Part shown: positions 15,413 through 47,129 of the stretch, piece by piece
How the letters are laid out: each line of letters opens with the position of its first letter
How positions within the stretch are numbered: the stretch's first letter is position 1
NCBI GenBank assembly: GCA_036504215.1
Contig: DASXVO010000040.1
Span: 62,001 to 126,000 of the forward strand
Direction of reading: 5' to 3'
Length of the DNA stretch: 64,000 nucleotides
DNA from: Vicinamibacterales bacterium
GTDB taxonomy: Bacteria; Acidobacteriota; Vicinamibacteria; Vicinamibacterales; Fen-181
The notes under the pieces: model-generated
Database searches by the model: none
What the model was told of the DNA's origin: nothing
The model's input: only the letters and a program-made list of their open reading frames with translations
Translations under genes and position numbers: made by a program

Positions 15413-17875
15413 CTACTCCTGTCGAAGCGCGAGGGCAGGGTGAAGACGGGCAGCGCGGAGCGCCGGCACATAGCAGGCAACGACGCCCGTGACGATCAGG
15501 ACGAACGTCGTCGCGGCGAGCACGACGGGGTCGTAGGGTGCCACGCCGAACAGCAGGCCGCGCGCCAGGCGGGCGAACACGCCGGACACGACGAGACCCG
15601 CGGCCGCGCCGCCCATCACGACCACCACGCCCTCGCGCAGCACGACGCGGAGAACCTGCAGGCGTGTGGCGCCGAGCGCGACCCGGATGCCGATCTCTCG
15701 AGTGCGGCGAGCCACCGAAAATGCGGCCACGCCGTAGACACCAACGGCTGCGAGCGCCATGGCGAGCAGCGCCATGACGCCGAGGACCGAGGCGGCGAGC
15801 CGGACCGGCATGATCGAGACGCCGACCTGATCCTCGAGCGATCGTACGTCGAAGATCGGCACGTCGCGATCGATTGAGCCGAGTCGCGCAACGATCGACC
15901 GCGCCATGACGTGCGGATTCCCGTCCGCCCGCACGTGAAGGACCACTGAGGAGACGTTGTGCTGGCCGAGCGGCAGGTAGACATATGGCGTCGGCTCCTC
16001 GTTGACCGTCACGTACTTTCCGGTTCCCGCCACCCCGATCACCTCGAGCCAATCGGGCGCCCGCTCGAGCCGGATGCGCCGGCCGATGGGATCCCGCCCG
16101 GGCCAGTATCGGGCTGCAAACGTCTGGTTGACGATTGCCACAGTGGGAGAACCTCCGCGGCTCTCCGGGCCGAACGATCGGCCCCGCAGGATCGGAATTC
16201 GCATCGTATCGAAGTGCTCGGACGTGACGATGTTGTACGCGACATCCGGCGCGCCGTCGCGGTCCTGGCGGTCGCCGACAACCACCTGTTGGCGCTCAGA
16301 CACGACGCCGAGTGGGACGAACTGCGCGAGGCTCGCGCTCCGCACGCCGGGCAGCGTGGCCATCGTCGTCATGACACGGTCGTAGAACTCACGGGTCTTC
16401 GATGCGCTCCCGTACCGCGACCCTGGTTCCACGCTGAGAATCAGCACGCCGCGAGGATCGAACCCGAGGTCGAGACGCTCCGCCTGCTGAAGGCTCCTCA
16501 ACACGAGGCCGGCGGTGGCCGAGAGCAGGACGCCGGCGGCCACCTGCGCGGCCACGAAAGTCTGACGCACGCGCCGCCGCCGCCGCACGGATCCCGCCTG
16601 TCCCTTGAGCACGGCGGCCGGCCGGAGGCCAGAACTGGACCAGGCTGGTGCCAGGCCGACGAGAATGCCAGTCCCGATCACGAGCAACACGGCGACGCTG
16701 AGCACCATGCGATCCATGGATGCGTCGACGCCGACGGGAACGGAGGCCGGAGGGCGAAACGCGGACAGCGCCCCGGTGAGCCACTGAGACAGCGCGAGGC
16801 CGACGAGGCCGCCGCCGACCGACAGGAGCAGGCTCTCGACGAGGACCTGCCGGACGATCTGCCAGCGCGTCGCGCCGAGCGCCAGCCGCATCGCCATCTC
16901 CCCTGCGCGGGCCGCGGATTGCGCGAGCATCAGGTTCGCCACGTTCACGCACGCGACGAGCAGCACGAGCAGGACCACGAGCGCCAACAGCGTCATGAAG
17001 GCGACCACCGGCGCGCGAGCCGCCGGGAAGATGCGGAACTGGCTCTCGGACAAGATGCTGACCACGCGGGCCCGGCCATTCGCATCTCGCCACGTGTCGG
17101 GGTGATCCTGGTACAACCGCCCAGCAATCGTCCAGAACTCAGCCCGAGCCTTGGACACCGGGACGCCGGCCCCCAAACGGCCCAGCAGGAGCAGCGTCCG
17201 CGTGCCGCGCACCTTCGTCCACCCTGTTGTCCGGAGTTCGGGCGGCATCAGTGCGCTCGACTGCAGGATCGGAATCCAGACATCGACGATCAGGCCCCGC
17301 AGCGTGCCACGGAACGACGGAGGAGCAACGCCGGTGACCACGAAGGGGTGCCCGTTGAGCTGTACCGTGCGGCCCACGATGGCCGTCTCGGCCCCGTATT
17401 TCCGCTTCCAGTACCCATGACTGATGACGGCGGTCGCCGTTGGCGCGTCCTCGCGATCGTCGTCGGGAACCAACGTGCGGCCCAGCATCGCGTTGACGCC
17501 AACCGTCTGGAAGTAGTTTCCGCTGACGAGCTCCGCAAACACGCGTTCGCTCTCGCCGCCGCCTCGCATGGTGACCGCCATCGGGGAGGAGGCGGCCAGT
17601 CCCGACAGCGACCTCGTGCGGTCACGGAAGTCGCAGTAGTCCGGGTACGAGTTGGGCCCGTAGAACAGAGCGCCGTCACGGCCGCTCGTGTAGACGCCGA
17701 CGACGCGTTCCGGCTGGTGGAACGGGAGAGGCCGAAACAGGAGCGCGTCGATGAAGCTGAAGACGCTCAGGCTCGCGCCGATGCCGAGGCCGATCGACAG
17801 AATGGCGACGAGTGTCGCGCCCCTGTGTCGAACCATCGTTCGCGCGCTGATCCGCAGTTCCCGCCACCATTCCAT
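15413..17875 (-). CDS. ADOP-type ABC transporter permease at the end of the RiPP operon
   Basis: An 820-residue MacB_PCD/FtsX permease of the same duplicated design as the gene at 12807, beginning MEWWRELRISARTMVRHRGA and LSIGLGIGASLSVFSF, with LVACVNVANLMLAQSAARAG mid-protein and GVYGVAAFSVARRTREIGIR near the end. Its ATG has a GGAGGGC ribosome site and lies only 28 bp after the stop of the 56-aa precursor-like peptide on the same strand, so it is likely the last gene of that operon. MacB-type permeases can move peptides and lipoproteins from the periplasm, so a role in export of, or immunity to, the peptide product is possible but unproven. No partner ATPase is adjacent. Confidence 0.88.
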   Translation of the reverse strand: MEWWRELRISARTMVRHRGATLVAILSIGLGIGASLSVFSFIDALLFRPLPFHQPERVVGVYTSGRDGALFYGPNSYPDYCDFRDRTRSLSGLAASSPMAVTMRGGGESERVFAELVSGNYFQTVGVNAMLGRTLVPDDDREDAPTATAVISHGYWKRKYGAETAIVGRTVQLNGHPFVVTGVAPPSFRGTLRGLIVDVWIPILQSSALMPPELRTTGWTKVRGTRTLLLLGRLGAGVPVSKARAEFWTIAGRLYQDHPDTWRDANGRARVVSILSESQFRIFPAARAPVVAFMTLLALVVLLVLLVACVNVANLMLAQSAARAGEMAMRLALGATRWQIVRQVLVESLLLSVGGGLVGLALSQWLTGALSAFRPPASVPVGVDASMDRMVLSVAVLLVIGTGILVGLAPAWSSSGLRPAAVLKGQAGSVRRRRRVRQTFVAAQVAAGVLLSATAGLVLRSLQQAERLDLGFDPRGVLILSVEPGSRYGSASKTREFYDRVMTTMATLPGVRSASLAQFVPLGVVSERQQVVVGDRQDRDGAPDVAYNIVTSEHFDTMRIPILRGRSFGPESRGGSPTVAIVNQTFAARYWPGRDPIGRRIRLERAPDWLEVIGVAGTGKYVTVNEEPTPYVYLPLGQHNVSSVVLHVRADGNPHVMARSIVARLGSIDRDVPIFDVRSLEDQVGVSIMPVRLAASVLGVMALLAMALAAVGVYGVAAFSVARRTREIGIRVALGATRLQVLRVVLREGVVVVMGGAAAGLVVSGVFARLARGLLFGVAPYDPVVLAATTFVLIVTGVVACYVPALRAARLHPALALRQE

Positions 17876-17903: not shown

Positions 17904-18074
17904 CTATCCGTCGCGTCGCGTTCGCTCGCGCCGTATCTCGTCGCCGAGTTCGCCGAGGGCCGGCTCGGTGACGTGATTCCAGGTCCACCCCGTTGCACGA
18001 CCGAGCGAGGCACAGGGCGGGTCGGGATCCGTGAGAATCCGGGACGCCGTGATCAATCCGCGATTGACTTCCAT
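17904..18074 (-). CDS. Putative RiPP precursor peptide 1 (56 aa)
   Basis: A 56-residue gene with a strong ribosome site, GGAGGTGA, 6 bp before ATG 18074. The peptide reads M-E-V-N-R then GLITASRI, LTDPDPPCASL, GRATGWTWNH and a charged tail ending RRERTRRDG. It aligns without gaps over 34 residues to the 43-aa peptide encoded 168 bp upstream: identical positions are M1, N4, G6-S11, I13, P17-P19, C21-L24, G29-W30 and H34. The conserved GLITAS block could be the recognition part, and the C/S/W/H-rich part the modified core. The longer Arg/Glu-rich tail is unique to this copy and may be a follower. It is followed by an FtsX permease and preceded by the exporter and radical SAM genes. The function is inferred from size, pairing and context. 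Confidence 0.75.
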   Translation of the reverse strand: MEVNRGLITASRILTDPDPPCASLGRATGWTWNHVTEPALGELGDEIRRERTRRDG

Positions 18075-18099
18075 TGTTCACCTCCATCGCTGCGCAACG

Positions 18100-18119
18100 G
18101 CCCCCGTCCGATCGGGGGC
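18100..18119. promoter_or_regulatory. Stem-loop just upstream of precursor 1
   Basis: GCCCCCG (18100-18106) pairs perfectly with CGGGGGC (18113-18119) around a 6-nt loop. In the minus-strand transcript it lies 26-45 nt before the start codon of precursor 1, right upstream of its ribosome site. It is one of three hairpins between the two peptide genes. Confidence 0.55.
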
Positions 18120-18121
18120 TG

Positions 18122-18157
18122 CGCCGGGTGGCGCGTCGTCGGGACCTCCACCCGGCG
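18122..18157. promoter_or_regulatory. Middle stem-loop between the two precursor genes
   Basis: CGCCGGGTG (18122-18130) is the exact reverse complement of CACCCGGCG (18149-18157), giving a 9-bp stem with an 18-nt loop in the intercistronic RNA. Confidence 0.5.
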
Positions 18158-18183
18158 TCGGTGATCGCACGCCTCGATCGATG

Positions 18184-18210
18184 GCGCCGGCCCAGGTCGA
18201 GGGCCGGCGC
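18184..18210. promoter_or_regulatory. Strong 10-bp stem-loop after precursor 2
   Basis: GCGCCGGCCC (18184-18193) pairs perfectly with GGGCCGGCGC (18201-18210) around a 7-nt loop. It begins about 33 nt after the stop codon of precursor 2 on the minus strand. There is no U-tract, so it is more likely a 3'-end stabiliser or attenuator than a complete intrinsic terminator. Such elements after a RiPP precursor often raise its level above that of the flanking genes; this is inference. Confidence 0.55.
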
Positions 18211-18242
18211 ATCGTCATCTTGTCCGTCTGGCTCTCGCCGGA

Positions 18243-18374
18243 CTAGGTCGCCTCGGCTTCCTTCGTGTGGCTGTGCTCGAAGTCCCACCCTGCGTAGTAG
18301 CACAGTGACGCGCAGCCGGGGTCCGGCTCTGGTCTGATCGACGAGGCGGTGATCAACCCTTCGTTCTTCTTCAT
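18243..18374 (-). CDS. Putative RiPP precursor peptide 2 (43 aa)
   Basis: A 43-residue peptide with a GGAGGTCACG ribosome site. Its ATG (18374-18372) overlaps the TGA of the ABC exporter (18373-18371) as ATGA, so it is translationally coupled to that gene, strong support for it being real. It reads MKKNEGLITASSI, RPEPDPGCASLCYYAGW, then DFEHSHTKEAEAT, sharing the GLITAS, PDPxCASL, GW and H positions with the second peptide downstream. The likely core has two Cys (21 and 25), two Tyr and one Trp, all residues that radical SAM enzymes crosslink in known RiPPs. There is no GG cleavage motif. The modification and the mature product are unknown. Confidence 0.8.
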   Translation of the reverse strand: MKKNEGLITASSIRPEPDPGCASLCYYAGWDFEHSHTKEAEAT

Positions 18375-20215
18375 CGTGACCTCCAGTCTCCGAGGTGATG
18401 CGCGGCCGGTCGAGGGCCGCGCGGGGTGGTGGGGCAGCCGAAAGACCGCCCCGGGTGCAGTGGACGATTCCCTTCGCCAAGCCGGGCGTGTGCGGCTGCG
18501 AAGAGCTGGCTGTGGATCGCCGGCGCGGAAGGGCGGAACGACTCGTCGACGTCGGCCTCCACAAACGGAACGCGCAAGTCGCAGACCCGGTCCGCAATCG
18601 CCACGACCGCCGGGTCGTGCGAGATGACGATTGCGGTGCGGCCGCGCAGGTAGCTGTCCAGGTGTGCCAGGACCGCGGTCGCGGTCTGCTCGTCGAGCCC
18701 CTTGGTTGGCTCGTCGAGCAGCACGATCGGCGCGTCTTTGAGCATCGCGCGGGCGATGCCCAACCGGAGTCTCTGGCCGTTCGACAGGGCGATTCCGCCC
18801 TCGCCGATTCGGGTGTCGAGACCGCGAGGCAGTGCGCGGATGAACTCGCTGGCACACGCGAGCGAGACAGCCTCCTCGATCTGTTGACTCGATGCGCTCC
18901 GCCTCGCGAGGCGGAGGTTCTCTTCGACCGTGCCGCTCAGCAGGTACGGATCTTCGAACACCACGGCGAGATGAGATCGGTACTGTGCGATGTCGAGCTG
19001 GCGCACGTCGATTCCGCCCAGCAGGATGCGCCCGCTCTCCGGATCGTAGAACCGCAGGAGCAGGCGTAGCACGGTCGACTTGCCGCAGCCGCTCGCGCCG
19101 ACGATCGCGAGCCGCTCCCCCTGGTCGACGTGAAAGGAGAGCCGGTCGAGGACGGGGGGGCCGGAAGGATAGCGGAAGACGATCGACTCGGCACAGAGGT
19201 CGAACCGGTGCGGAACCGGCCCCACCCCGGTGCGGCGTTCACCGGGGAGGTTCCGCAGCTCCACCAGCCGCCGAAGTGAAACGAGTGCGCTCTGCACGTC
19301 GACGTTCTGGCTCAGCACAGCCTGAAGCGGAGAGAAGACGTAGCTGATGAACGCCTGGAAGGCGACCAGTTGACCGACCGACATGCGGCCGGCCAGACAC
19401 TCGGCGGCCCCGAACCACAAGACGACGAACGGCGCAACGGTGCTGACCAGGTACGTCGAGCGCCGGGCCGCTGCCGACGTCATCTCCTCGCGGACGACCG
19501 TGTTCACCATATGGAGGAGTTGCGACCTCTGGCGCAAACGGCCGTCCCACTCGGCCCCGAACGCCTTGACGACGGGCACCCTCGCCAGCACTTCCTGAAG
19601 CCCCCACCCGACCTGCGCGCGGGCGTCCTGCGCGAGCTGCGCGCAGGCGCGAATCCTCCGGTTGAACACGATGATGGTCAGGGCGAACGCCGGCAGCGTG
19701 GCCAGGCACACGAGAGCGAGCTTCCAGGACAGCAGCGTCAGGCTGAGGGCTCCGCCCACGAGCAGAATCGCACTCTGGAGGATGCCGAGCAGCGGGCCGG
19801 CCAGGATGGCGTTGAGGCGAACCAGATCGGCACGCACGCGGGACGCCAGGAACCCCGGCGGGTGATTCTCGAGCGCGATCAACGATGCGCGCTGCAGCCG
19901 CTCGAGGATCTCCAGATGGAAGCTCCCGAGAACGTGCTCGCGCAGCATGACGACGACCAGCGTGTGCGCCATCGTCACGATCGCGTTGAACGCCAGGATC
20001 GCGAACAGGCCGACGACCACGATGGAGAACAGGGAGAGGTCCCGCGCTTTCACGAGGCGATCGACGATCACCATCGTCAGGAACGGGAGCGGGAGCTGCA
20101 CGGCAACGGTCAGCAGCATCGTTGCGGCGGCCAGCCACAGGCGCCGTCGATGCGGCGCGACGAAGCGCCAGAAGGTCCTGAGATCGGATCGCTCCTGGAG
20201 TCCGAGTTGCGTCAC
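18371..20215 (-). CDS. ABC exporter (fused permease-ATPase) of the RiPP operon
   Basis: A 614-residue half-transporter: an N-terminal six-helix ABC exporter domain (residues ~20-310) followed by an ATPase domain. Walker A is GASGCGKST, the signature is LSNGQRLRLGIARAML (LSNGQ instead of the usual LSGGQ), Walker B is PIVLLDEPT and the H-loop is VISHDP. There is no C39 peptidase domain, so leader removal must be done by another protease. A ~70-residue basic, proline-rich tail follows the ATPase. The GTG start at 20215 overlaps the stop of the nucleotidyltransferase gene (GTGA), and its stop overlaps the start of precursor 2 (ATGA). It most likely exports the modified peptide. Confidence 0.9.
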   Translation of the reverse strand: MTQLGLQERSDLRTFWRFVAPHRRRLWLAAATMLLTVAVQLPLPFLTMVIVDRLVKARDLSLFSIVVVGLFAILAFNAIVTMAHTLVVVMLREHVLGSFHLEILERLQRASLIALENHPPGFLASRVRADLVRLNAILAGPLLGILQSAILLVGGALSLTLLSWKLALVCLATLPAFALTIIVFNRRIRACAQLAQDARAQVGWGLQEVLARVPVVKAFGAEWDGRLRQRSQLLHMVNTVVREEMTSAAARRSTYLVSTVAPFVVLWFGAAECLAGRMSVGQLVAFQAFISYVFSPLQAVLSQNVDVQSALVSLRRLVELRNLPGERRTGVGPVPHRFDLCAESIVFRYPSGPPVLDRLSFHVDQGERLAIVGASGCGKSTVLRLLLRFYDPESGRILLGGIDVRQLDIAQYRSHLAVVFEDPYLLSGTVEENLRLARRSASSQQIEEAVSLACASEFIRALPRGLDTRIGEGGIALSNGQRLRLGIARAMLKDAPIVLLDEPTKGLDEQTATAVLAHLDSYLRGRTAIVISHDPAVVAIADRVCDLRVPFVEADVDESFRPSAPAIHSQLFAAAHARLGEGNRPLHPGRSFGCPTTPRGPRPAAHHLGDWRSR

Positions 20216-20979
20216 GACACCCTCGCCCGCGCGGCCAGCCGCGCCTCGCACCACGCCAGGTCTTCCGGCGTGGTCAGGTTGACGTCGAAGGTCGAGACGC
20301 ACTCCGCGCGCACGCGGGCACCGCGGTCGATCAGGGTCTGGATGGCGTCGGTGATGCCGAGTTCGCCGTTCGCGGCGCGGGGCGTCCGTTCGAGCGCCTC
20401 GAAGATGGCCGGAGTGAACGAGTAGACGCCGCATCCCTTGAGCCCGGTCTCCCCCATCGGGGGCTTCTCGATGACCCGCGTCACGCGCCGGTCAGGGCCG
20501 AGCACCACCCGGAAGTTGCGGTGGAACCGCATGGGATCGCGTTCCTCGACGATGGCGACGACGGCGTCGCTCGTACCGTCGAGCACGGGGTCCAGCAAGC
20601 GGGACCCTCGAGCGGGCACGAAGAAGATGTCACCGAGGAACAGCGCAAAGGGACCCCTCACGTGCGGCTGGAGACAGAGAACCGCATCACCCGATCCGCG
20701 TGTGCTCGACTGTTCGATGACTTCGATCGTGCCGGGCTCCGGCCGGACGACCGACAGGTAGTCAATCACGCGCTCCCTTCCGCAGCCGAGGACCAGCAGC
20801 ACCCGGGAGATCCCGAGCCCGTGCATCGCGTCGAGCTGGTGGAGGAGCACCGGACGACCGCCCACCGGAAGCAGCGTCTTGGGCAGGCCGCGGAACGCCC
20901 CATTCATCCGGCTGCCTCGGCCTGCGGCGATGATCGCGCCGGTCAGCGCGTCACGAGCAGAAGAAGTCGCGGTAGCCAT
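20212..20979 (-). CDS. Sugar-phosphate nucleotidyltransferase-like protein
   Basis: A 255-residue nucleotidyltransferase of the GT-A-like fold that activates sugar or alditol phosphates with NTP. The nucleotide-binding loop GAIIAAGRGSRM is at residues 14-25 and the substrate Lys lies in LPKTLLPVGG. A metal-binding Asp is in FALFLGDIFF, and the IEKPPMGETGLKGCGVYSF segment is typical of the family. ATG 20979 overlaps the glycosyltransferase gene by 29 bp and has an AAGGTG ribosome site. It presumably makes the nucleotide-activated donor used by a glycosyltransferase of the same operon. The sugar cannot be told from sequence. Confidence 0.85.
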   Translation of the reverse strand: MATATSSARDALTGAIIAAGRGSRMNGAFRGLPKTLLPVGGRPVLLHQLDAMHGLGISRVLLVLGCGRERVIDYLSVVRPEPGTIEVIEQSSTRGSGDAVLCLQPHVRGPFALFLGDIFFVPARGSRLLDPVLDGTSDAVVAIVEERDPMRFHRNFRVVLGPDRRVTRVIEKPPMGETGLKGCGVYSFTPAIFEALERTPRAANGELGITDAIQTLIDRGARVRAECVSTFDVNLTTPEDLAWCEARLAARARVS

Positions 20980-22396
20980 CGTGAAGCACCTTCCAACTGA
21001 AGTGCGCGACCATGTAGTCGCGGTGATCGACGAACTCGTCCGAGTCGAGAAGCCCCAGGATCTTCCGGCCCATCTCCGGCAGGTCCTGGCACAGGTGGAC
21101 CAATGGGGCGCCATCGACGCGCGATCGTTGCCAGTGATACGACGGCAGGTCGAGGTTGACGCACGTCATGCCGCAGGCCAGCGCTTCCGCCGTGACGTAG
21201 GAGTAGAAGTCGGCGATCGACGGCAGGACGTGAATCCGGCACCGGGAGTACTCGGCGACCACATCGTCGCCCTCGCGACGTCCCGCGAACTCGACGTGAT
21301 TCGTCAGGCCGAGCCGTTCGATCGCCGCCCGAAGGCAACCGATTTCCTGCCGCTCGACCGGCGCAGACGACTCGATGTCGCCCACGAGCCGCAGTCGTAG
21401 TGCCGGACGGTGGTCCACCATCCCCCGGAAGGTCTCGAGGAACGCCCGCACGCCCTTGTTCGCTGTCAGGCGACCGACGAACAGCAGCGTCTCCTTGTCA
21501 CGTTCGACGGGAAGCGGCCTGAACCGATCGGTGTCGACGGGGTACGGAAGCTGTACCAGCTTCTGCCGCGGAATGCCCCACGCCAACGCGTGCCGGTAGT
21601 CGGGCTCCTGCAACACGAGCAGCTTGCCGATGCGTTCGGCGTCGTACCAGCACCGGTCGCCGCCACGAAGGCCTGGCGGCTGGAAGAAGGACGGCACGAG
21701 CAGCCACTGCCGCGATGGGAAGAACTCGACCACGTCCTGAGCGAGGACCTGCGGGTAGAAGTAGGTGACGATGGCGTCGGCGTTCGACTGCTGAAGCGCG
21801 CCGAACAGATCGGAGGATCCGACCGTGTAGTTGCAGAGCGCCTCGGCGTCGCCAGCACCAGCCGCACCGAATGTTGCCACCCGCCGCCGAAGCCGGCACA
21901 CGTCGGTCCACCGGGGAACCGTGAAGCGCGCGACCGGAACCCCGTCGATGACCGCGTGCGCCGGCAGGTCCGGGCGCCTGTCGTAGGTGAAGACGAGGTG
22001 TTCGAGCGGCTCGGACAGGTGAGCGCAGATGTCCGCGATCTGGCGCTGCGTGCCGGACAGGTGGGGCAGATAATCGGACGTCACGTGGACGATGCGCTTC
22101 TTTGGCCTCCGCGCGACGAGGACTTTCGACCGAACCATCGCGGACAGTGTCCGAGGGCTCTGCAGCGTGTCCGGTCGAAGCTCGCCGTTTTCGACCCTCA
22201 CGCCCAGTGCGTCCTCGAGGTCGGTGAGCAGCCCGCACACGCCGTCGGCCGTGATGCCCAGGACGCCGAAGGGTGAATCGAACCACGGTGGCGGCGCCGG
22301 CAGCTCGTTCTCCCGTCCCGCGGCCAGCCTCATGGCGTGCTCGATGCCGCCAGCGTCCGGGACGGTCGCCGCGGTGAGAGAACCGTCCACGCGCAT
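20951..22396 (-). CDS. GT4-type glycosyltransferase with N-terminal degenerate carrier-protein-like domain
   Basis: A 481-residue protein. Residues ~100-480 are a GT-B glycosyltransferase of family 4: HVTSDYLPHLSGTQRQI at its start, LLFVGRLTANKGV in the linker region and the donor-site segment HVLPSIADFYSYVTAEALA with the conserved Glu. Residues ~43-92 look like an acyl/peptidyl-carrier domain (CGLLTDLEDALGVRVENGEL and a TLSAMV helix), but the phosphopantetheine-bearing DSL is replaced by TADG, so it should not be chargeable. ATG 22396 overlaps the CPBP gene stop (TGATG). Within a RiPP operon it may glycosylate the peptide; the degenerate carrier domain may serve for docking. Confidence 0.82.
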   Translation of the reverse strand: MRVDGSLTAATVPDAGGIEHAMRLAAGRENELPAPPPWFDSPFGVLGITADGVCGLLTDLEDALGVRVENGELRPDTLQSPRTLSAMVRSKVLVARRPKKRIVHVTSDYLPHLSGTQRQIADICAHLSEPLEHLVFTYDRRPDLPAHAVIDGVPVARFTVPRWTDVCRLRRRVATFGAAGAGDAEALCNYTVGSSDLFGALQQSNADAIVTYFYPQVLAQDVVEFFPSRQWLLVPSFFQPPGLRGGDRCWYDAERIGKLLVLQEPDYRHALAWGIPRQKLVQLPYPVDTDRFRPLPVERDKETLLFVGRLTANKGVRAFLETFRGMVDHRPALRLRLVGDIESSAPVERQEIGCLRAAIERLGLTNHVEFAGRREGDDVVAEYSRCRIHVLPSIADFYSYVTAEALACGMTCVNLDLPSYHWQRSRVDGAPLVHLCQDLPEMGRKILGLLDSDEFVDHRDYMVAHFSWKVLHDGYRDFFCS

Positions 22397-23259
22397 CACG
22401 CGGCCTCCCGCACCGGTGCCGCCCAACCGCCCTGGCGCCGGGCGAGCATCAGCAGGCCAGCCGCGACGACGAGCAGGAAGAGCGCCGTCACGATTTTGAA
22501 AACCACCAGCTCGAGGTGACTGCCGAGGTGATAGTTGAAGGTGAACACCCGGGATACCTCGAACGCCGGAACGCGGTAGAAATAGATGCCGTCGCCCCAG
22601 AAGTCCCACCCGGCGTGAATGCCGATCGCCAACCACAGCGACCGGGTCACGATCACCGCGAGCGCGAGGACCACGCCGAGCAGGAAGAGATTGAGGAGCA
22701 CGAGAACGCCCACGCCCTTGAACGCATGGATGAGGCTGTAGAGCACCGAGGAGGCGACGACGGCCACCGGAACCGCGCGATAGCCTCGGAGGAGCCGCGT
22801 CAGCACGTACCCGCGGAAGAGCAGTTCCTCGCCGAGTCCGATGCCCAGGTTGATGACGACCCCGAGGCCCACGCCCACGGCGGCCAGTTGCACCGGGAGT
22901 CCGGTGATTGTCACGCGGCGAAGATCGGTCCAACCCGCAGCATGGTGCACCGCGCCGATGCCGCCGACCGCCACGCCCGCCACCACGAACCCAATCGCGA
23001 GCGCCCGAACGAGCCTCGCATCCCGCACGACGCCCAGGTTGTTCAGGCCTTCGCGGTGGACGAAGTGCTGGTAGGCCGCGACGAACAGGAGAGTGAACGG
23101 CAGGATGAACCAGATGCCCACGACCCGCGTATGGGTGAGCAGCGCGACCGGAATGACGCAGACGAGGGACAGCACGAGGAACGATACGAGGAAGATCAGG
23201 ACCTCGCAGAGCGGTGCGAACAACGGCCAGACGCGTGACCGGATGGTGGGTTGATTCAC
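22396..23259 (-). CDS. CPBP-family intramembrane metalloprotease
   Basis: A 287-residue membrane protein with about eight helices. The CPBP (Rce1/Abi) catalytic motifs are present: GEELLFRG (Glu144, Glu145, Arg149), a His in SLIHAFKG and HAGWDF in the third motif. Members cleave prenylated proteins or act in bacteriocin immunity and maturation. GTG 23259 overlaps the stop of the preceding gene and follows an AGGAGG ribosome site. Since the ABC exporter lacks a C39 domain, this is the best candidate in the operon for leader removal, or it may give self-immunity. Both are inference from context. Confidence 0.88.
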   Translation of the reverse strand: MNQPTIRSRVWPLFAPLCEVLIFLVSFLVLSLVCVIPVALLTHTRVVGIWFILPFTLLFVAAYQHFVHREGLNNLGVVRDARLVRALAIGFVVAGVAVGGIGAVHHAAGWTDLRRVTITGLPVQLAAVGVGLGVVINLGIGLGEELLFRGYVLTRLLRGYRAVPVAVVASSVLYSLIHAFKGVGVLVLLNLFLLGVVLALAVIVTRSLWLAIGIHAGWDFWGDGIYFYRVPAFEVSRVFTFNYHLGSHLELVVFKIVTALFLLVVAAGLLMLARRQGGWAAPVREAA

Positions 23260-24596
23260 GACATGACCTCCTGGGCACGAGCGAGGATGCGCTCGGAGAT
23301 GGCGGCGGCGCCCGGCAGGCGCGTCAACTCGGCGCAGTACGCCGCCTGGTGTTCCCGGAGTTCCCGCCGAACCGATTCGTCGCAGAGCAGCCGCTGGAGC
23401 GCACACGTCGTCGCGCCCTCGTCGAAGAGTTCGAGGCGTTCGAACGTACGTGCGTACCGATTGCCGTCGAACAGCGGCCGCAGCTCCTCGAGCCAACCGA
23501 GCGGGAAGACCGCCGACGGGAAGATCGACCCGGGCGCCTCGCGCTCGATGGATCGAACCAGGCCCTCGACGTGCGCCGACAGGGGGAAGGGCGAGTCGAA
23601 CGCCACGCCGTCGGCGGCAGGGCGGGCAGAGACGCTGTTGACGAAGGCGGCCGCGGGAACTCCGGCGATGACCGCGCGCGTCACCGTCGCCGACGTGACG
23701 TTGTCGGCGATGACGAGATCGCTGGTGCGCACGAGGTCATCGACCACGCTCACGGGCAGGCCAGAGCGGTACTGCAGGGTGACCTGGCCCGAGGTCTCGA
23801 CGCGGTCCTCGAGTTCGCCGCTGACGAACACGAGTCGAACGGGAACCAGGCACGCGGAGAAGTACCGGGCGAGCAGGCGCGGGTAGTAGCGCATGTACGG
23901 GATGCCAAGCGTCGTGCACAACTGGATCGCCCAACTCCCCACCGGCACGAGCACGAGGCGCTCGTGGACCGGGAGGCCGAGCCGACAGCGAACTTGATCC
24001 GTGCGCTCGCCGGGCGACCCGGCGCCGCCGGAGAGGTTGAACTTGAAGATCCGGTCGTCGGGGTCGATCCGGGGGTCGTGCAGCGGGCACGGCCGGACGA
24101 TCGCGGCGATCCGGTCTGGAAGCGGCTGGATCTCACAGATCTTCGTCCTCGGTCGCGGTCCTTTCGGTGCGCCGGGGTCTCCGGCCTTGGGCGCCTCGAA
24201 CCGGCGCAGACACTCGATCGTGATCCTCCGCAGCCGAGGGTGCAGCATGAGGTGGTCGAAGGTCGCGACGGGGCACGAGAGATCGAACAGCCAGTTGTTC
24301 GACCAGACATGGGCGACATCCGCCGACTCGTTGAGGTAGTAGTCGGACGTGATGATCAGGGACGGGGAGATCTCGCGGGCGGCGAGATTCAGCGCCCGCT
24401 GGTTCGCCGTCCGATCGTCGGAGAGCGGCGCGACCTTCCATCCTCCCTGCCGGAGGAAGTCCGCTGCGAACGGGAACGCCGCGAACCTGACGTTCCAGCC
24501 GTTCGCCGTCAGATCCGCCGCGAAGCGCGCGGCGGTGTAGGTCTCGCCGAGGCTCTTCTGGCGAGCTGTCACGAAGAGCGCCGAAGGCGTGGTCAC
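23256..24596 (-). CDS. Glycosyltransferase-fold protein, DUF6365-like
   Basis: A 446-residue protein whose N-terminus (ALFVTARQKSLGETYTAARF) and overall pattern resemble GT-B-type proteins of the DUF6365 kind. The C-terminal half has a DLVIADNVTSATVTRAVIAG segment, similar in position to the nucleotide-sugar site of MGT/UDP-glycosyltransferases. No catalytic residue can be named with certainty. GTG 24596 overlaps the stop of the upstream radical SAM gene (GTGA), and its own end overlaps the CPBP start. With the GT4 gene and the nucleotidyltransferase it forms a sugar-transfer set inside the operon. Confidence 0.65.
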   Translation of the reverse strand: MTTPSALFVTARQKSLGETYTAARFAADLTANGWNVRFAAFPFAADFLRQGGWKVAPLSDDRTANQRALNLAAREISPSLIITSDYYLNESADVAHVWSNNWLFDLSCPVATFDHLMLHPRLRRITIECLRRFEAPKAGDPGAPKGPRPRTKICEIQPLPDRIAAIVRPCPLHDPRIDPDDRIFKFNLSGGAGSPGERTDQVRCRLGLPVHERLVLVPVGSWAIQLCTTLGIPYMRYYPRLLARYFSACLVPVRLVFVSGELEDRVETSGQVTLQYRSGLPVSVVDDLVRTSDLVIADNVTSATVTRAVIAGVPAAAFVNSVSARPAADGVAFDSPFPLSAHVEGLVRSIEREAPGSIFPSAVFPLGWLEELRPLFDGNRYARTFERLELFDEGATTCALQRLLCDESVRRELREHQAAYCAELTRLPGAAAISERILARAQEVMS

Positions 24597-25999
24597 GGTG
24601 TCACCCCCTGGGTCCGGGGCGCAGCGGCCGCGGGGAGACACGGCGAATCGCCGGCTGCAGACCGGTACTCGTCCTGGAGAGGTCCGTGGTGGCGCCAGAC
24701 GGACTTGTAGAAGGCGCAATATGGGTCGCGCGCGTAGATATTTCCGGAGGCGCTCTCGGCGTGGGCCATGCAGCCGCCCGCACAGAAGTAGCGGCACTCG
24801 CAGCCGGCGCACCCCGGCACGCGATCGACGGTGCGGTCGAGGTACGCGCGCTTCGCCTCGGTCGAGGTCAGCACACGCTCGAGTTCCGCGTCATCGAGCG
24901 CGCTCACGCGTCCGAGACAGTGCCGAGCGTCGGTGAGGTTCGGGCACGGATGGATGGCGCCGTCCGCGTGGATTGCGATGATGCGATCGAGCCGGCAGTC
25001 GGTGCGGACGCGGGTCATCGCCAGCTGACCGTCGTCGGCATCCGCGCCGCCCGCCGCCAGACGTTTGGCGACCGCCCGCTGGTGCAGCGCGAACATGTCG
25101 GCGCACGAGGTGGTGAGGCGGTCTCGATTGCAGAGTCCGCGGCCGGTCGGCACGAAGAAGCCGAATGACACGTCGGCGCCAAAGGCGGCCGCGACATCCA
25201 CCACGTCCTCGAGGTGTTCGTGGTTCAGTCGCGTGACGGTCGGGTTGATCGACACGCGCGCCATCGGGAAACCGTTCGCGCGCAGCGTCTCGAGCCCGCG
25301 GATCGTCCTCGCGAACGTGCCCGCTCCGCGAATCCGGTCGTTCAGATCGGCCGTGGCGCCGTCGAGGCTGATGTTGAGGGAGTCGACGCGCGCCGCAAGC
25401 ATGCCGGCGACGGCGCCGGTGAGCAGCGTCCCGTTGGTGACCAGGGTGATCGATCCGAACCTGGAGCGGGCGGTCGCGAGGATGTCTTCGATGTCCCGCC
25501 GGAGGAGCGGCTCGCCCCCGGTGACGATGAGGCGGGTGAACCGGCACCGCGCCGCGACGTCGAGAAGGCGGTGGATCGCGGGCAGGTCGAGAACGTCCGG
25601 TCCCGTCCGCTGGTCGGCGTCCATGTAGCAGGTGATGCACGAGAGGTTGCAGCGCGACGTGACGTGAAGGTGCAACGCGCGTGGCGCTGGCTCCGCCATG
25701 CCGGCAGCGCCTGGTGCCGTAACCTCAGCGGCGCTCTCTCGAACGAAGCCGTGTTCGCGCAGGTAGGCCACCGTATCCCGGATCGCCTCGGGAGAGAACC
25801 GAGAAGCCGGTGTGCCGACGCCGGCTGATGTCGGATGGCCGCCAGCGACGACGGAGCGGACGGCCTCGAGCCCCTCGCGAGGCATGCGGACCCATGTCCC
25901 CGCGGGAACGTTCAGCACGAGTGCCTGCGTCGCCTTGGCGATCACGTGGGTGCCCGGGGTGAACTCCAACGGTGTCAGGTCGCCTCGAGCCGGTGTCAT
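24593..25999 (-). CDS. Radical SAM/SPASM peptide maturase with N-terminal PqqD-like domain
   Basis: A 468-residue enzyme. Residues ~15-90 form a PqqD-like RiPP recognition element that would bind the precursor leader (VLNVPAGTWVRM, then RDTVAYLREHGFV). The radical SAM barrel starts with CNLSCITC (Cys117, Cys121, Cys124), with GGEPLLR for SAM binding and LNISLDGA. The C-terminal SPASM domain, carrying auxiliary Fe-S clusters, shows CRLDR, HPCPN and GCAGCECRYFCAGGCMAHA. ATG 25999 overlaps the stop of the preceding radical SAM gene (ATGA). It is likely one of the core enzymes installing a C-C, C-S or C-O link or an epimerisation on the GLITAS peptides. The reaction type cannot be read from sequence. 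Confidence 0.9.
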   Translation of the reverse strand: MTPARGDLTPLEFTPGTHVIAKATQALVLNVPAGTWVRMPREGLEAVRSVVAGGHPTSAGVGTPASRFSPEAIRDTVAYLREHGFVRESAAEVTAPGAAGMAEPAPRALHLHVTSRCNLSCITCYMDADQRTGPDVLDLPAIHRLLDVAARCRFTRLIVTGGEPLLRRDIEDILATARSRFGSITLVTNGTLLTGAVAGMLAARVDSLNISLDGATADLNDRIRGAGTFARTIRGLETLRANGFPMARVSINPTVTRLNHEHLEDVVDVAAAFGADVSFGFFVPTGRGLCNRDRLTTSCADMFALHQRAVAKRLAAGGADADDGQLAMTRVRTDCRLDRIIAIHADGAIHPCPNLTDARHCLGRVSALDDAELERVLTSTEAKRAYLDRTVDRVPGCAGCECRYFCAGGCMAHAESASGNIYARDPYCAFYKSVWRHHGPLQDEYRSAAGDSPCLPAAAAPRTQGVTP

Positions 26000-27483
26000 G
26001 GCAGATACTCCTCGGCCATTGCGAAATCGACCGCGCCGCCGAACACGCGCCTCAGGTTGAGCCAACTGCTCGCCGCCGGGGTGTACCCCGCAGCGATGCG
26101 GGGCAGCACCAGCCGAAGGAACTGACAGAGCGACGACGCGCGGCGGCCGCCCGCCTCGGCCGAGGCAACGTCCGCGGCGCATCCGCCCTTGCAGAAGTAG
26201 CGAACCGCACATCGGGCGCAGCCCGGCCGTTCATCGACGCCAGCGACCGCGGGTTCGAGACTCCGCCGGGAGAGCGAGTCGGCGTCCGTCAACAGGTTGC
26301 CGAGGCGGTAGGGTGAAGACTGCAGCCCGTCGCAGGGGAAGATCGTCCCATCGCAGTCGACGAGCACCGAACCTGCGCCGGCGCCGCAGCTCACGCCGGC
26401 GCGAGACATGTAGCGATCGCAGAAGGCGTTGAACGACGCGGACGCAACCTCGTAGTACTCCGCCAGCATCCAGACACGCATGTACGTCGTCAGCAGTTCC
26501 GCGGCCGTGACGCCGCTTCCATTCCCTGCGAGCCCGGCGCGTCCTCGAGCGACCACGGGCGTCAGCTCGAGCGACAGGCGGAGTCTGCCGGCGAGTTTCA
26601 CGAGGTTGGGCACGTCGCGGAGGTTCTGCCGCATGATGACGGCTTTGATGCCGAGAGCCGGACCGCCGAGCGCTTGGAGCCGGAGAATGCCGTCGATCGT
26701 CCGCTGGAAGGTCCCGGCCCCACGAATCGCGTCGTGCACCTCGGGCCGCGACCCGTCCAGGCTCACGCAGACGCGAGCCACGCGAGCCGCGATGGCCTGG
26801 CAACGGGCCGCGTCGAGGAGCGTGCCGTTGGTGGCCACACCGACGCGCGCCACGTTTCGGGCCGCGCACTGGAGAACCTCCGCGAAACGCGCGTGCAGCA
26901 GCGGCTCGCCGCCGAACAACACGAGGTCGGCGACGCCAGCGCGCGCCATCCGCTCGACGAGCGCGTACAGCTGGGCCGCCGGCGGGTCGAACGATCGCGC
27001 CGGCGGCCGCTCGTCCGCCCAGCCCGTCGAGTCCGCATCACCGCGGACCGCGTCTCGAGCCGGCCCGGCGCACACGCCGCAATGCGCGCAGCGCAGGTTG
27101 CAGCGGCGAGTCACGTTGAGCATCGCCGCTCTCACCGGCGCGGCGCACGGCAAGGTCGCGGGTCCGCAGGCTTTGTCCCCGGCAGGCCGTGCGAAGCCGC
27201 CGAGCAGCAGCGTGTCAATCAGGCGGCGCCGCTGCTCCGACGAGGCGTCCGCAGCCTGGACGTCGAGGCTGCCCGGCTCGCCTCGCCACATCTGTCGAGT
27301 GAACCGGGCACCGGCGCCAGACAGTCGTATCCAGTTGCCGCCCCGTGAGTTCACCAGCAGTGTGGTCCGGCGCGCCTGAATCAGCCGGGTCGCCGCGTCC
27401 CATTCGAGCGGCGGCGCCGAGGACAGGATCTGGCTCCGCGCGTTGGTGACGGTGGGAGGGATCAGTGCGGCCCGCATATGCAC
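25996..27483 (-). CDS. Second radical SAM/SPASM peptide maturase with N-terminal PqqD-like domain
   Basis: A 495-residue enzyme of the same plan as its downstream neighbour. A PqqD-like region (~25-100, TTLLVNSRGGNWIRLSGAG) precedes the radical SAM motif CNLRCAHC at Cys128, Cys132 and Cys135, with FGGEPLLH and VCVSLDGSRP. An insert with an extra CGVCAG follows the cluster motif directly. The SPASM part shows CGAGAGS, FPCDG and GCARCAVRYFCKGGCAAD. GTG 27483 directly follows the TGA of the zinc-ribbon gene and has a GAGGAG ribosome site; ATG 27477 is an alternative. Both the RRE and the SPASM signatures point to ribosomal peptide modification. Confidence 0.9.
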   Translation of the reverse strand: MHMRAALIPPTVTNARSQILSSAPPLEWDAATRLIQARRTTLLVNSRGGNWIRLSGAGARFTRQMWRGEPGSLDVQAADASSEQRRRLIDTLLLGGFARPAGDKACGPATLPCAAPVRAAMLNVTRRCNLRCAHCGVCAGPARDAVRGDADSTGWADERPPARSFDPPAAQLYALVERMARAGVADLVLFGGEPLLHARFAEVLQCAARNVARVGVATNGTLLDAARCQAIAARVARVCVSLDGSRPEVHDAIRGAGTFQRTIDGILRLQALGGPALGIKAVIMRQNLRDVPNLVKLAGRLRLSLELTPVVARGRAGLAGNGSGVTAAELLTTYMRVWMLAEYYEVASASFNAFCDRYMSRAGVSCGAGAGSVLVDCDGTIFPCDGLQSSPYRLGNLLTDADSLSRRSLEPAVAGVDERPGCARCAVRYFCKGGCAADVASAEAGGRRASSLCQFLRLVLPRIAAGYTPAASSWLNLRRVFGGAVDFAMAEEYLP

Positions 27484-27810
27484 TCAATGCTCCTCGTTGC
27501 CACGGCGGGCACCGGCACCGCCTGCGAGGACGCGCCGGCGCCGCGCGAAGACGAATGCAAGGAATACCGTGAGCGCGGCGATCCACGTCAGCACCGCCAC
27601 GACCGGGGTGAACTCCTCCGGGCCGATCCGTCCGACCGCGATCCTGACGAACCACAGGAGACCCAGGATTATGACGAGCGCCGCGAGCGTGCCCCTGAAC
27701 AGCGCGCGCTGATAGCGTGCCTCGAGGCCGTCGGGCACGCCGCTACCGCACGACGGGCAGGTCCGCGTTGCAGCCGTTCCCACATCACGCCCGCACGTTG
27801 GACAGAACAT
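27484..27810 (-). CDS. Small zinc-ribbon membrane protein
   Basis: A 108-residue protein with an N-terminal zinc ribbon (MFCPTCGRDV, then TCPSCGSGV: two CxxC knuckles), then two hydrophobic membrane helices (LAALVIILGLLWFVRIAVG and a second at ~75-92) and a basic Arg-rich end. Its start at 27810 lies inside the 3' end of the upstream radical SAM gene, whose last 26 bp it overlaps. The zinc ribbon may be cytoplasmic and serve as a protein contact. The function is unknown; the position suggests an accessory or immunity role in the RiPP operon. Confidence 0.75.
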   Translation of the reverse strand: MFCPTCGRDVGTAATRTCPSCGSGVPDGLEARYQRALFRGTLAALVIILGLLWFVRIAVGRIGPEEFTPVVAVLTWIAALTVFLAFVFARRRRVLAGGAGARRGNEEH

Positions 27811-28777
27811 CGCATTGCTCCTGCAGACCGCCGGACGCCCGGGGGATTCGCGGCGCCGGACCAGGCCACGTGGAAAACGGTTCGAGATCGGCGTGACCGA
27901 ACAATTGGTGGTAGTTCGTGTACACGCCCCCGCACGCGGTCCTCGCCGCGCAGCCCGCGCAAGGCGGGGCCAGGCGCTTGCCGGTAGCATTCAGACAGTC
28001 GTCGTAGTCGTCGATGACCTGCCCGTAGAAGAGCATCCGCTCCTTGCGCGTCCGCCACCACTCGACGCAGAGGCGCTCGTGCGGGCGGACCGCGCAGAAT
28101 GGAAATCCCTCGAGCACGGCGTGCTGGCCGATCTCGTCGCAGTACCGGATCGTCTCGTCGAGGACGGGGAGGAGCTCGGAGTACGGCACAGCCAGGTTGC
28201 GAAGCCCGCTTGCCGCGAGGCCCGCCGGGCACAGCCCCGCCAGGTTCACGGTGTCGACGCCAGCACGCGAGAGGACGCCGGCGATCGCGCGCAGGTCCTG
28301 GTAGTTCTGTTGCACACAGACCGTGGCGGACTGCACGCCCTGCCCCAGGCGCTTGACGTTGTCGATGCCTTGCATCGCTTCGTCGAAGCTCCCCGGCACG
28401 GTCGTCAGTCCGTCGTGCACCGCCGCGTTCGGGCCATGTACCGAGATGACGAAGAAGGACACACCCAAATCAACGAGACGCTTCGCGTAGTCCGCATCGG
28501 CGAGACGGCGCGCGTTGGTGAACATGATTACCGTGGGGTAGCCGTACTGCCGGATCCGACGCAGTAGCTCGACGAGTGGCTCGTAGACGGTGGGCTCACC
28601 GCCGATGACGCACACCGCTTCGTACCCGCGGCCGGTGTGCTCGCGCAGAAACGCGTCGAGGGCCGGCAGGGGAACGGTCTCCGGCGGACGGCCGAGCGGG
28701 TCGGTCGTGCAGAACCGGCAACGGTTCGTGCAGCGTCGCGTCACGTGGAGCGTGATGAAGTACTGGGGAAGTCGCAT
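27785..28777 (-). CDS. Radical SAM enzyme without recognition domain (paralogue A)
   Basis: A 330-residue protein that begins straight at the radical SAM barrel (MRLPQYFITLHVTRRCTNRC), with cluster cysteines 16, 20 and 23 in CTNRCRFC, and CVIGGEPTVYEPL for SAM contact. A SPASM-like Cys set lies at the end (PPCAGCAARTACGGVY). It is clearly related to the next upstream enzyme (28788): both have an F-V-I/I-V-SVHGP strand, LEGFPxC and the CGGVY ending. ATG 28777 follows a GGGGGAGG ribosome site. It lacks a PqqD-like domain, so it may use the recognition domain of the other two maturases or act on another substrate. Confidence 0.87.
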   Translation of the reverse strand: MRLPQYFITLHVTRRCTNRCRFCTTDPLGRPPETVPLPALDAFLREHTGRGYEAVCVIGGEPTVYEPLVELLRRIRQYGYPTVIMFTNARRLADADYAKRLVDLGVSFFVISVHGPNAAVHDGLTTVPGSFDEAMQGIDNVKRLGQGVQSATVCVQQNYQDLRAIAGVLSRAGVDTVNLAGLCPAGLAASGLRNLAVPYSELLPVLDETIRYCDEIGQHAVLEGFPFCAVRPHERLCVEWWRTRKERMLFYGQVIDDYDDCLNATGKRLAPPCAGCAARTACGGVYTNYHQLFGHADLEPFSTWPGPAPRIPRASGGLQEQCDVLSNVRA

Positions 28778-28787
28778 GATCCTCCCC

Positions 28788-29705
28788 CTATGCCGCACCG
28801 GCAACCTGCGGCTGGAACTCGTCCCAGCCGTGCAGCTGGACGTAGGGTCGGTAGACGCCGCCGCACTCGCCGGTCAGCGCGCACGCCGCGCAGGAGGCCC
28901 CCTTCGTCTTGCACGTGGACGCGACGTACGCGTCGTGGTTCTGCCAGATGACGCCGTGGATGAGGCAGGTGATCTGGTGCCCGTGCCTATCGTCGCGCGC
29001 CAGGCAGAGATGCGCGAGTTCCGGCGCGGCGCACGACGGGAATCCCTCGAGCGTGGCGACCACGCCGCGGTCGAGCGCGACGCGGACGGCGGCGACGACG
29101 TGCGGCGCGATGCGGTCGAATCGGGGCATGAGAGCCGCCCCGGCCGCCGCCGCGCGCCCGGCCGGCATCAGGCTCGAGATGTTGACGTGCGAGGCACCCG
29201 CCGCGATCACCCGCTCGACGGTCGCCGCCAGGAGGCTGAAATTGCGCGTCGTCACGACGGTGTTCGTTCGCACCGCGCAGCCCAGCGCCGCCGCATGCTC
29301 TATGCCGCGAAGCGCCCGAGAGAGGCCGCCGGGAACGCCGCACAGATCGTCGTGGATGTCGGCGGTGGGCCCGTGGACCGAGACGATGAAGAGCGAGACG
29401 CCCGCGGCGGCGAGCCGCTCGACGAAGGCACGGTCGGCAAGCGCCCAACCGTTGGTTTGAAGCGATACCGACGGATAGCCGAACGCCCGCACGCTGGCGA
29501 GGACGTCGAACAGATCGCGGCGCAGTGTCGGTTCACCCCCGTGCAGGTTGACTCGTTCGAATCCCTGGTCACGGTTCGACTCGAGGAAGACCTCGATATC
29601 AGCCGCGGCGACGTCCCCGCCCTCTCGCACCAGTCGATCGCCCCACACGCAGAACTGGCAGCGGAAGTTGCAGCGATCGGTGACGTGGATGCTCAGCTCT
29701 CTCAT
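28788..29705 (-). CDS. Radical SAM enzyme without recognition domain (paralogue B)
   Basis: A 305-residue enzyme starting MRELSIHVTDRC with CNFRCQFC at Cys12, Cys16 and Cys19, LHGGEPTLRRDL for SAM binding, FIVSVHGPT and LEGFPSCAAP. The C-terminus carries auxiliary-cluster cysteines (ASCAACALTGECGGVYRPY). It is a paralogue of the 27785 enzyme, separated by 10 bp. The open frame extends upstream through a stretch reading VVYETGRSPVL, so a longer GTG-initiated form cannot be excluded; ATG 29705 has only a weak AGG ribosome site but begins at the family N-terminus. Confidence 0.87.
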   Translation of the reverse strand: MRELSIHVTDRCNFRCQFCVWGDRLVREGGDVAAADIEVFLESNRDQGFERVNLHGGEPTLRRDLFDVLASVRAFGYPSVSLQTNGWALADRAFVERLAAAGVSLFIVSVHGPTADIHDDLCGVPGGLSRALRGIEHAAALGCAVRTNTVVTTRNFSLLAATVERVIAAGASHVNISSLMPAGRAAAAGAALMPRFDRIAPHVVAAVRVALDRGVVATLEGFPSCAAPELAHLCLARDDRHGHQITCLIHGVIWQNHDAYVASTCKTKGASCAACALTGECGGVYRPYVQLHGWDEFQPQVAGAA

Positions 29706-29854: not shown

Positions 29855-30373
29855 CTACAGGTCCGAGCCGTAGGGCATGCACCAGGTGCCGGCTCGGAGA
29901 GGCTCGCCTTCACCCTGCGCGCGACCGCGGCTCTGTCGCCGCCCGTGGATGGTGCAGTACCGTTCGACGTCCTTGGCCGCCCGACGTGCGGCGTCGCTGT
30001 CGATCTCCGGGCGGAACCCGGAGTGGCGGACGGCCCGATCCCCGAGCAGGAAACCCACGTTGATGACCGTCTGCCGATCGAGGAGCCAGCGGTTGCCGAA
30101 CCGATGCAGTGCCCCGAGGAAGCGTTCGCGATAGTGCTGGCGAAGCCAGATGACCGCCTCGCGCCGAACGGACTTCCGGTCGCCCACCGCCTGGCCGAAT
30201 GCCAGGAAGCAGTCCTCGAGAATGTAGTCAACGGCCTCTTCGCGGGTTCGTCGCTCGGCCGAGGCGGCATCGGCGATGCGCTGGCTCGCCACGTCGGCGA
30301 CAATGCCGCGCTCTTCGTCCGGCATTCGAAGTCCAGGGGGCACGTACGTGAGCAACGGGTCTCGGACGGACAT
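29855..30373 (-). CDS. Uncharacterised 172-aa protein (paralogue of the next upstream gene)
   Basis: A helical 172-residue protein that I do not recognise. ATG 30373 has a strong AAGGAGGGG ribosome site. Residues ~45-145 (AVDYILEDCFLAFGQAVGDR, AVIWLRQHYRERFLGA, RFGNRWLLDRQT, FLLGDRAVRHSG) align with the gene at 30468. This copy adds a 40-residue N-terminal part with a short Pro-rich motif (LLTYVPPGLRMP) and a basic tail ending AGTWCMPYGSDL. The tail holds a single Trp, Cys and Tyr, which resembles a peptide core fused to a long leader, but this is speculation. No membrane segment or catalytic motif is visible. Confidence 0.7.
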   Translation of the reverse strand: MSVRDPLLTYVPPGLRMPDEERGIVADVASQRIADAASAERRTREEAVDYILEDCFLAFGQAVGDRKSVRREAVIWLRQHYRERFLGALHRFGNRWLLDRQTVINVGFLLGDRAVRHSGFRPEIDSDAARRAAKDVERYCTIHGRRQSRGRAQGEGEPLRAGTWCMPYGSDL

Positions 30374-30467
30374 CTCTCCCCTCCTTGCTACGTTTCGCAG
30401 CGTTCTGATACCACTCTCCGCGAGACGGGTGACCTGAGCGTGGCGTCGCGATTCCCGGCGGACGTCG

Positions 30468-30821
30468 TCAGGATTCCGGGCGTGCGCCAGCAGGTGTGTG
30501 TCCCGCGCCCAACCCCCGCATTCGGCACCCCGCTTCGACTTCAGCCGACGCCGTCATCGCCGCCTTCAGGTCCACGTTCGGTCGGTCACCCGCATGGACG
30601 CGAGCCCGCTCGCCGAGGAACCTCCCCACGCCGTGCAGTCGATCACGGTCGGCCTCCCAACAGTTCCCGAGATCGGTCATCGCGTAGAGGAAGAAGCGGC
30701 GGTATCTCTGACGCCACCACACGATCGCGTCGTAGTCGACCCGCTTGCGTCGTCCGAGCGCGCGGCCAGCGGCGAGAAAGCAGTCGGCAAGTACGAAGTC
30801 AACTTCCTGCTCTGCGTCCAT
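30468..30821 (-). CDS. Uncharacterised 117-aa protein (short paralogue)
   Basis: A 117-residue protein homologous over ~100 residues to its neighbour: EVDFVLADCFLAAGRALGRR, AIVWWRQRYRRFFLYAM, LGNCWEADRDRLHGVGRFLG and RARVHAGDRPNVD. Conserved features are the DCFLA helix, a W-x-RQ-x-YR helix, GN-x-W and VGxxLGxRA, suggesting a compact all-helical fold. It lacks the N-terminal and C-terminal extensions of the other copy. ATG 30821 has a GAGG ribosome site. The longer open frame upstream of it is probably leader DNA. It sits between the kinase and its paralogue. Confidence 0.68.
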   Translation of the reverse strand: MDAEQEVDFVLADCFLAAGRALGRRKRVDYDAIVWWRQRYRRFFLYAMTDLGNCWEADRDRLHGVGRFLGERARVHAGDRPNVDLKAAMTASAEVEAGCRMRGLGAGHTPAGARPES

Positions 30822-30979
30822 GTGGGCCTCGCATTGTTTCAGCGGTTGTTGCGACCGTCGATGCGAGAACGCCAATCCGGGCCACCTCGTACACCACCCC
30901 GGACCGGACGATCGCTCAGGCGTCGCCGGCTCTTGCGTGGAATGCCGAGGCGCCGTCGGCCGGCGGCGTCCCGTCGATG

Positions 30980-47050: not shown

Positions 47051-47129
47051 TATTAAAATCAACAACTTACAGCCATTCGGCTTCGCCAGCGTGCAATAGC
47101 GTGCTACGCTGTCTTGAGGCGAAGCACCC

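Follow-up and report, generated by a model that had tools for sequence, protein, structure and literature searches.

A pair of short genes at the end of a radical SAM operon

The window, by which we mean the whole stretch of 64,000 nucleotides that was analysed, carries on its minus strand two short open reading frames, P1 (18374..18243, 43 aa, MKKNEGLITASSIRPEPDPGCASLCYYAGWDFEHSHTKEAEAT) and P2 (18074..17904, 56 aa, MEVNRGLITASRILTDPDPPCASLGRATGWTWNHVTEPALGELGDEIRRERTRRDG), which we regard as putative RiPP precursors. Their ATGs are preceded by GGAGGTCACG and GGAGGTGAACA, respectively, with the Shine-Dalgarno (SD) sequence GGAGGT lying 4-5 nt ahead of each, and the two peptides align without gaps over 34 residues, 19 of which are identical (BLASTP 42.4 bits, E 5e-13 for the pair). 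The alignment score of 96 compares with a shuffle mean of 19.4 and was equalled in none of 20,000 shuffles. A preliminary description of this DNA had claimed both the two genes with strong ribosome sites and the gapless alignment, and both are found where it placed them. Beyond the aligned part P2 continues into a tail of 22 residues that differs from P1.

The nucleotide differences between the two genes are those of a coding pair. Across the 34 codons the nucleotide identity is 56/102 (55%), the differences at codon positions 1, 2 and 3 number 13, 9 and 24 (binomial P 0.006 for 24 of 46 at third positions), and 12 of the 19 residues common to both peptides are encoded by different codons. The annotated frame alone is conserved and free of stops in both copies (19/34 identical, BLOSUM 96), the next best frame reaching 15/33 and BLOSUM 50 and containing stops. 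This coding-type conservation in one open frame indicates a selected coding pair and not a chance similarity or a DNA-level repeat. Judged from their sequences, P1 and P2 are real genes under purifying selection on both peptides, and both are presumably translated.

Both peptides are short and hydrophilic and not transmembrane, and residues of the types C, W, H, T and S are conserved between them. P1 has two cysteines and P2 has one, which makes a multi-thioether scaffold impossible for P2; Cys21, Trp30 and His34 are common to both peptides and are candidates for reaction. As the conserved block spans almost all of P1, leader and core are inseparable from two paralogues. Neither peptide matched any Pfam or NCBIfam model (E<=10), and hence no named RiPP precursor family, and in the papers listed by a literature search GLITAS, a motif of the common block, was found only as drug names and other unrelated words.

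P1 closes a series of minus-strand genes that runs from rSAM A (28788..29705) and rSAM B (27785..28777) through a small zinc-ribbon protein whose C-terminal half is hydrophobic (27484..27810; an ORF with an SD site and weak zinc-ribbon matches), rSAM C (25996..27483) and rSAM D (24593..25999) to a DUF6365 protein (23256..24599; PF19892 1.9e-58), on which a literature search found nothing. There follow a CPBP/Rce1-like intramembrane protease (22396..23259; PF02517 9e-18), possibly a leader peptidase or immunity protein, a GT4-type glycosyltransferase with a small N-terminal extension (20951..22396; Glyco_trans_1_4 2.1e-17), a sugar-1-phosphate nucleotidylyltransferase-like protein (20212..20979; NTP_transferase 3.4e-12) and an MsbA-type ABC exporter of 614 aa (18371..20215; ABC_membrane 2.5e-30, ABC_tran 1.6e-31, TIGR02204 6e-103), in which no peptidase domain was recognised. 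The N-terminal ~100 residues of the glycosyltransferase (22396-22100, minus) resemble an acyl-carrier-protein domain in which Ala replaces the phosphopantetheine Ser, although the sole match to a model, AmcB, is weak (E 0.059).

Between rSAM A (29705) and P1 the ends of neighbouring genes range from a 29 nt overlap to 10 nt apart. A and B are separated by 10 nt, B and the zinc-ribbon gene overlap by 26 nt, the zinc-ribbon gene and C are adjacent, and C and D share an ATGA; D and the DUF6365 gene then overlap by 7 nt, DUF6365 and CPBP by a GTGA, CPBP and GT4 by 1 nt, GT4 and the nucleotidylyltransferase gene by 29 nt, the latter and the exporter by a GTGA, and the exporter and P1 by an ATGA in which the ATG of P1 overlaps the exporter's TGA. 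These junctions show that rSAM A to P1 are arranged as one translationally coupled operon, and the overlap of P1 with the exporter stop codon and the four radical SAM genes (PF04055 matches in A-D) are as the preliminary description had them. A distance of 6 kb separates P1 and P2, at the far end of this operon, from its closest radical SAM gene. Neither GC nor GC3 sets the operon apart from its surroundings, and in a sister species about two genes to the left of the operon are kept and nothing beyond, which fits with or without an insertion.

P1 and P2 are separated by 168 nt (18075..18242, minus) that fold into three strong hairpins (MFE -93.2 kcal/mol, z -3.84), a stability reached by 0 of 200 shuffles. 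This structured spacer is absent from the preliminary description, and it matched no Rfam family. An ADOP-family FtsX/MacB-like permease (15413..17875, minus; TIGR03434 808.8 bits, above the cut-off) starts 28 nt past P2, and its membership in the system is uncertain; homologues also occur elsewhere, for example in loci L068 and L070 described below.

At its other end the operon is preceded by a cassette of an ECF sigma factor, a GAF/Ser-Thr kinase and a pair of small proteins that are homologous to each other (29855-34307, minus). These small proteins (30821-30468 and 30373-29855, 117 and 172 aa), which the preliminary description does not mention, had no Pfam or NCBIfam match. Of 148 other genomes of the order, 10 have this ECF-kinase cassette, each with both small paralogues, and in the stretches examined from these genomes it was found with no counterpart of rSAM A-D, of the sugar genes or of the exporter. 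We therefore rejected the cassette as part of the RiPP system and, since it recurs on its own, the operon proper most likely begins at rSAM A.

Two kinds of radical SAM enzyme

The radical SAM motifs are intact in all four enzymes. C and D (PF04055 1.7e-22 and 1.5e-24) are 33% identical to each other and combine an N-terminal domain with a CX3CX2C motif and a seven-cysteine SPASM pattern, and an alignment of eight relatives shows none of these cysteines to vary. When the PDB was searched with a C/D profile, CteB came first (3.9e-16) and SkfB next (3e-13), and a structure model of D, of low confidence (pLDDT 50), was best matched by CteB, SkfB and SuiB. C and D stay below the NCBIfam equivalog cut-offs for CteB/SkfB-type maturases.

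The preliminary description had assigned PqqD-like domains to two of the radical SAM enzymes, a claim that homology and predicted fold bear out but direct comparison does not: Pfam and NCBIfam call no PqqD in the N-terminal domains of C or D, and hhalign of these domains against PqqD/MftB was negative with thin profiles of 2 and 3 sequences. A model of the isolated N-terminal domain of D, likewise of low confidence (pLDDT 56), consists of predicted strands followed by helices, and its top eight Foldseek matches are all RiPP enzymes (the TbiB1 lasso RRE with five chains, CteB, a lasso B1 RRE and ThcOx; best E 0.013, probability 0.92). In addition, Pfam finds PqqD in the region aligned to this domain in 4 of 6 relatives from the phylum (L078, L079, L068 and L082; E 2e-7 to 6.5e-11). 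The match of the predicted fold and the alignment with Pfam-detected PqqD domains are two independent indications that the N-terminal domain of C and D is a RiPP recognition element (RRE).

A and B (PF04055 1.9e-18 and 1.1e-21) are 38% identical and have no RRE. The best NCBIfam model for both is HxsC4, at 132 bits for A and 114 bits for B and far under its cut-off of 500, while with TIGR03977 (HxsC) they score 90.7 and 106.7 bits and miss the cut-off of 267.9. Among solved structures, the cytosylglucuronate decarboxylase BlsE is closest to them (6.7e-21).

Distribution and small-peptide cassettes beside related enzymes

If the GLITAS peptides formed a conserved family that recurs near radical SAM genes, as the preliminary description had supposed, homologues of P1 and P2 should appear in related genomes. 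Our searches covered the window's own phylum (presumably Acidobacteriota, to judge from the ADOP permease), plus plasmids and viral contigs, and the P1/P2 model matched only this genome among 7 genomes of the family, 193 of the class and 396 of the phylum (overlapping sets), so that the supposed family did not emerge; homologues with other neighbours were not found either. Weak matches of the peptide model (L003-L015 and L022) were rejected as unrelated or stop-containing frames or as lying inside long ORFs, and neither P1/P2 nor the operon had a match in plasmids or viral contigs.

The operon, too, apparently does not recur in other genomes of the class, to judge from the following comparisons. 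Within the class rSAM C matched nothing at E 1e-30 other than its own paralogue D, and DUF6365 gave one weak match. HxsC-like matches occur in 65 class genomes (this one included), mostly in the radical SAM core only; five such loci were opened and held no operon homologue past single radical SAM genes, the best of these neighbourhoods being a glycan/methyltransferase context and not a relative of the operon. We also set aside the rSAM B matches from a scan of genome contigs, which were only NirJ-type enzymes beside heme d1 genes, a plasmid DUF6365 match that belongs to a polyketide/nucleoside-type cluster of Streptomyces and has no radical SAM genes around it, and plasmid radical SAM matches in Kitasatospora, Pontibrevibacter, Paraclostridium and Embleya, whose neighbourhoods are unlike this operon.

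Searches of another class (162 genomes) and of the phylum (396 genomes) found C/D-like enzymes (threshold E 1e-35) in eight other genomes, and several of these enzymes adjoin small genes. The enzymes of L078 and L079 are 27-28% identical to D with the same architecture as C and D, and ~140-160 nt upstream of each PqqD-SPASM enzyme lies a gene for a cysteine-containing peptide with an SD site (L078 8034-8195 and L079 7980-8144, both plus strand). These homologous peptides of 53 and 54 aa share the pattern YxPxxxxxYTSxxIxExxGPAxTCSxxPCPxD (0 of 2,000 shuffles equal the pair's score), belong to no Pfam or NCBIfam family and are likely another RiPP precursor family. In L070 a 56-aa ORF rich in Cys, Gly and Ser (15209-15039, minus) precedes a SPASM-type radical SAM enzyme and an ABC exporter and looks like a sacti- or ranthipeptide precursor, and in L068 a 52-aa ORF starting MPYEPPKGLSDTQVL (19511-19353, minus), a possible precursor, has a PqqD-SPASM radical SAM gene and an ABC exporter downstream of it. 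P1 and P2 have no significant similarity to any of these candidates. This branch of enzymes thus tends to accompany small peptides, and its members lead to other cassettes of this phylum with small peptides unrelated to P1 and P2. The cassettes of L078 and L079 resemble the present locus in that a candidate precursor adjoins an enzyme of C/D architecture, but they contain one enzyme with the precursor directly upstream, whereas here there are four enzymes and the precursors lie at the far end.

A candidate RiPP pathway and competing explanations

We consider it likely that P1 and P2 are paralogous RiPP precursors that are matured by the radical SAM enzymes of the operon and whose product is exported. 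This reading draws on the coding pair, the coupled operon, the RRE-SPASM enzymes C and D and the precursor-like genes beside their relatives. What stands of the RiPP proposal in the preliminary description is the precursor pair with maturases and an exporter in one coupled operon; the recurring family and GLITAS as the leader found no support. Against this reading we count that P1 and P2 have no homologue in the sets searched, and hence no phylogenetic coupling of peptide with enzymes, and that they lie far from the enzymes, whereas in the relatives the candidate precursor is directly upstream. Their dissimilarity to those candidates, the negative direct comparisons of C and D with PqqD, the low confidence of both structure models and the lone cysteine of P2 weigh on the same side.

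From here on we infer the substrate role of P1 and P2, the reacting residues, the position of the leader, glycosylation, export and activity. The RRE domains of C and D would recognise part of either peptide, with the common N-terminal GLITAS-I block as the probable site, and the two enzymes may jointly act on the PDPxCASL....GW...H stretch and install a SAM-radical cross-link or C-H modification there, for which the cysteine, tryptophan and histidine named above are the candidate target residues. The RRE-less, HxsC-like A and B might add a second modification and the sugar enzymes may glycosylate the product, which the CPBP protease may trim, or protect against, and which the MsbA-type exporter would release. 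A narrower version, which we think rather doubtful as a whole, would make this a new RiPP class of two-component GLITAS-block peptides, with a cross-link centred on Cys21, Trp30 or His34 that is made by a four-enzyme assembly (two RRE-SPASM, two HxsC-like) and then glycosylated.

Among known systems the closest working analogue is thuricin CD, a two-component sactipeptide whose cluster likewise holds two related precursors (TrnA/TrnB) and two RRE-SPASM enzymes (TrnC/TrnD). There TrnC and TrnD associate in a complex and jointly modify the two peptides (PMC12093266), and by analogy we propose that C and D may work as a cooperating pair like TrnC/TrnD. TrnA and TrnB carry three thioether cross-links each, for which the two cysteines of P1 and the one of P2 are too few; the P1/P2 system is therefore, judged by gene layout and cysteine numbers, thuricin CD-like in layout and not a member of that family, and it differs also in having sugar genes and a second, HxsC-like pair of radical SAM enzymes. 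The maturases of the SCIFF ranthipeptide (CteB) and of a sactipeptide (SkfB) are the closest solved relatives of C and D and have the same RRE-radical SAM-SPASM order, but the six-cysteine precursor pattern of SCIFF is absent from P1 and P2 and the enzymes here stay below the TIGR03974 cut-off. Similarly, A and B score best with the models of the His-Xaa-Ser system, yet far below the cut-offs, and P1 and P2 contain no His-Xaa-Ser repeats.

It is also conceivable that the radical SAM enzymes act on a sugar or nucleoside, the operon product being a small glycoside-like metabolite and P1 and P2 small accessory proteins such as exporter subunits or immunity peptides. The relationship of A and B to BlsE, the sugar enzymes of the operon, the coupling of P1 to the exporter gene and the Streptomyces polyketide/nucleoside-type setting of a DUF6365 gene would all agree with this. 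We nevertheless regard it as unlikely, as the solved structures closest to the RRE-SPASM enzymes C and D are those of peptide maturases, the NCBIfam similarity of A and B to the peptide-associated HxsC4/HxsC exceeds that to BlsE (132 vs 77 bits for A), and short hydrophilic peptides with the conserved residue types named above do not look like transmembrane subunits.

Two precursors, four radical SAM enzymes and an adjoining exporter also speak against P1 and P2 being precursors of an intracellular peptide-derived redox cofactor like PqqA or MftA, although they are almost as short as these and mftC and pqqE are among the plasmid matches of rSAM D. Mycofactocin is glycosylated, so sugars can be added to such cofactors, but no cofactor-using dehydrogenase was recognised in the operon and presence in a single genome within the class argues against a housekeeping cofactor; we hold this to be very unlikely. 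The slimmest chance we give to P1 and P2 being translated but not radical SAM substrates, that is, regulatory or orphan small proteins at the operon's end by the ADOP permease. Their lack of homologues in the genomes searched, 3′-end position and structured spacer would suit such a role, whereas a precursor role agrees better with the ATGA overlap with the exporter gene, with a composition rich in C, S, W and H, and with the way two paralogous peptides match two paralogous enzyme pairs (A/B and C/D).

Radical SAM RiPPs are one of the main sources of new peptide chemistry, and genome-mining tools tend to overlook small precursors of this kind for which there is no family model. The operon offers a defined set of two putative substrates, four enzymes and one exporter in a soil phylum, with which it could be tested whether the thuricin CD scheme of paired radical SAM enzymes acting on paired precursors applies more widely, and whether HxsC-like enzymes that have no RRE make use of their partners' recognition domain.

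Elsewhere in the window, and unlinked to the operon, lies a gene for another radical-SAM-like protein with a CNIKPACVYC motif and an N-terminal extension (44288-46453, plus strand). Further on, a tRNA-Ser(CGA) is followed at once by a tyrosine-integrase-like gene (46960-48362, plus strand), and this tRNA site is probably the attachment site of a rightward integrated element that is separate from the operon.
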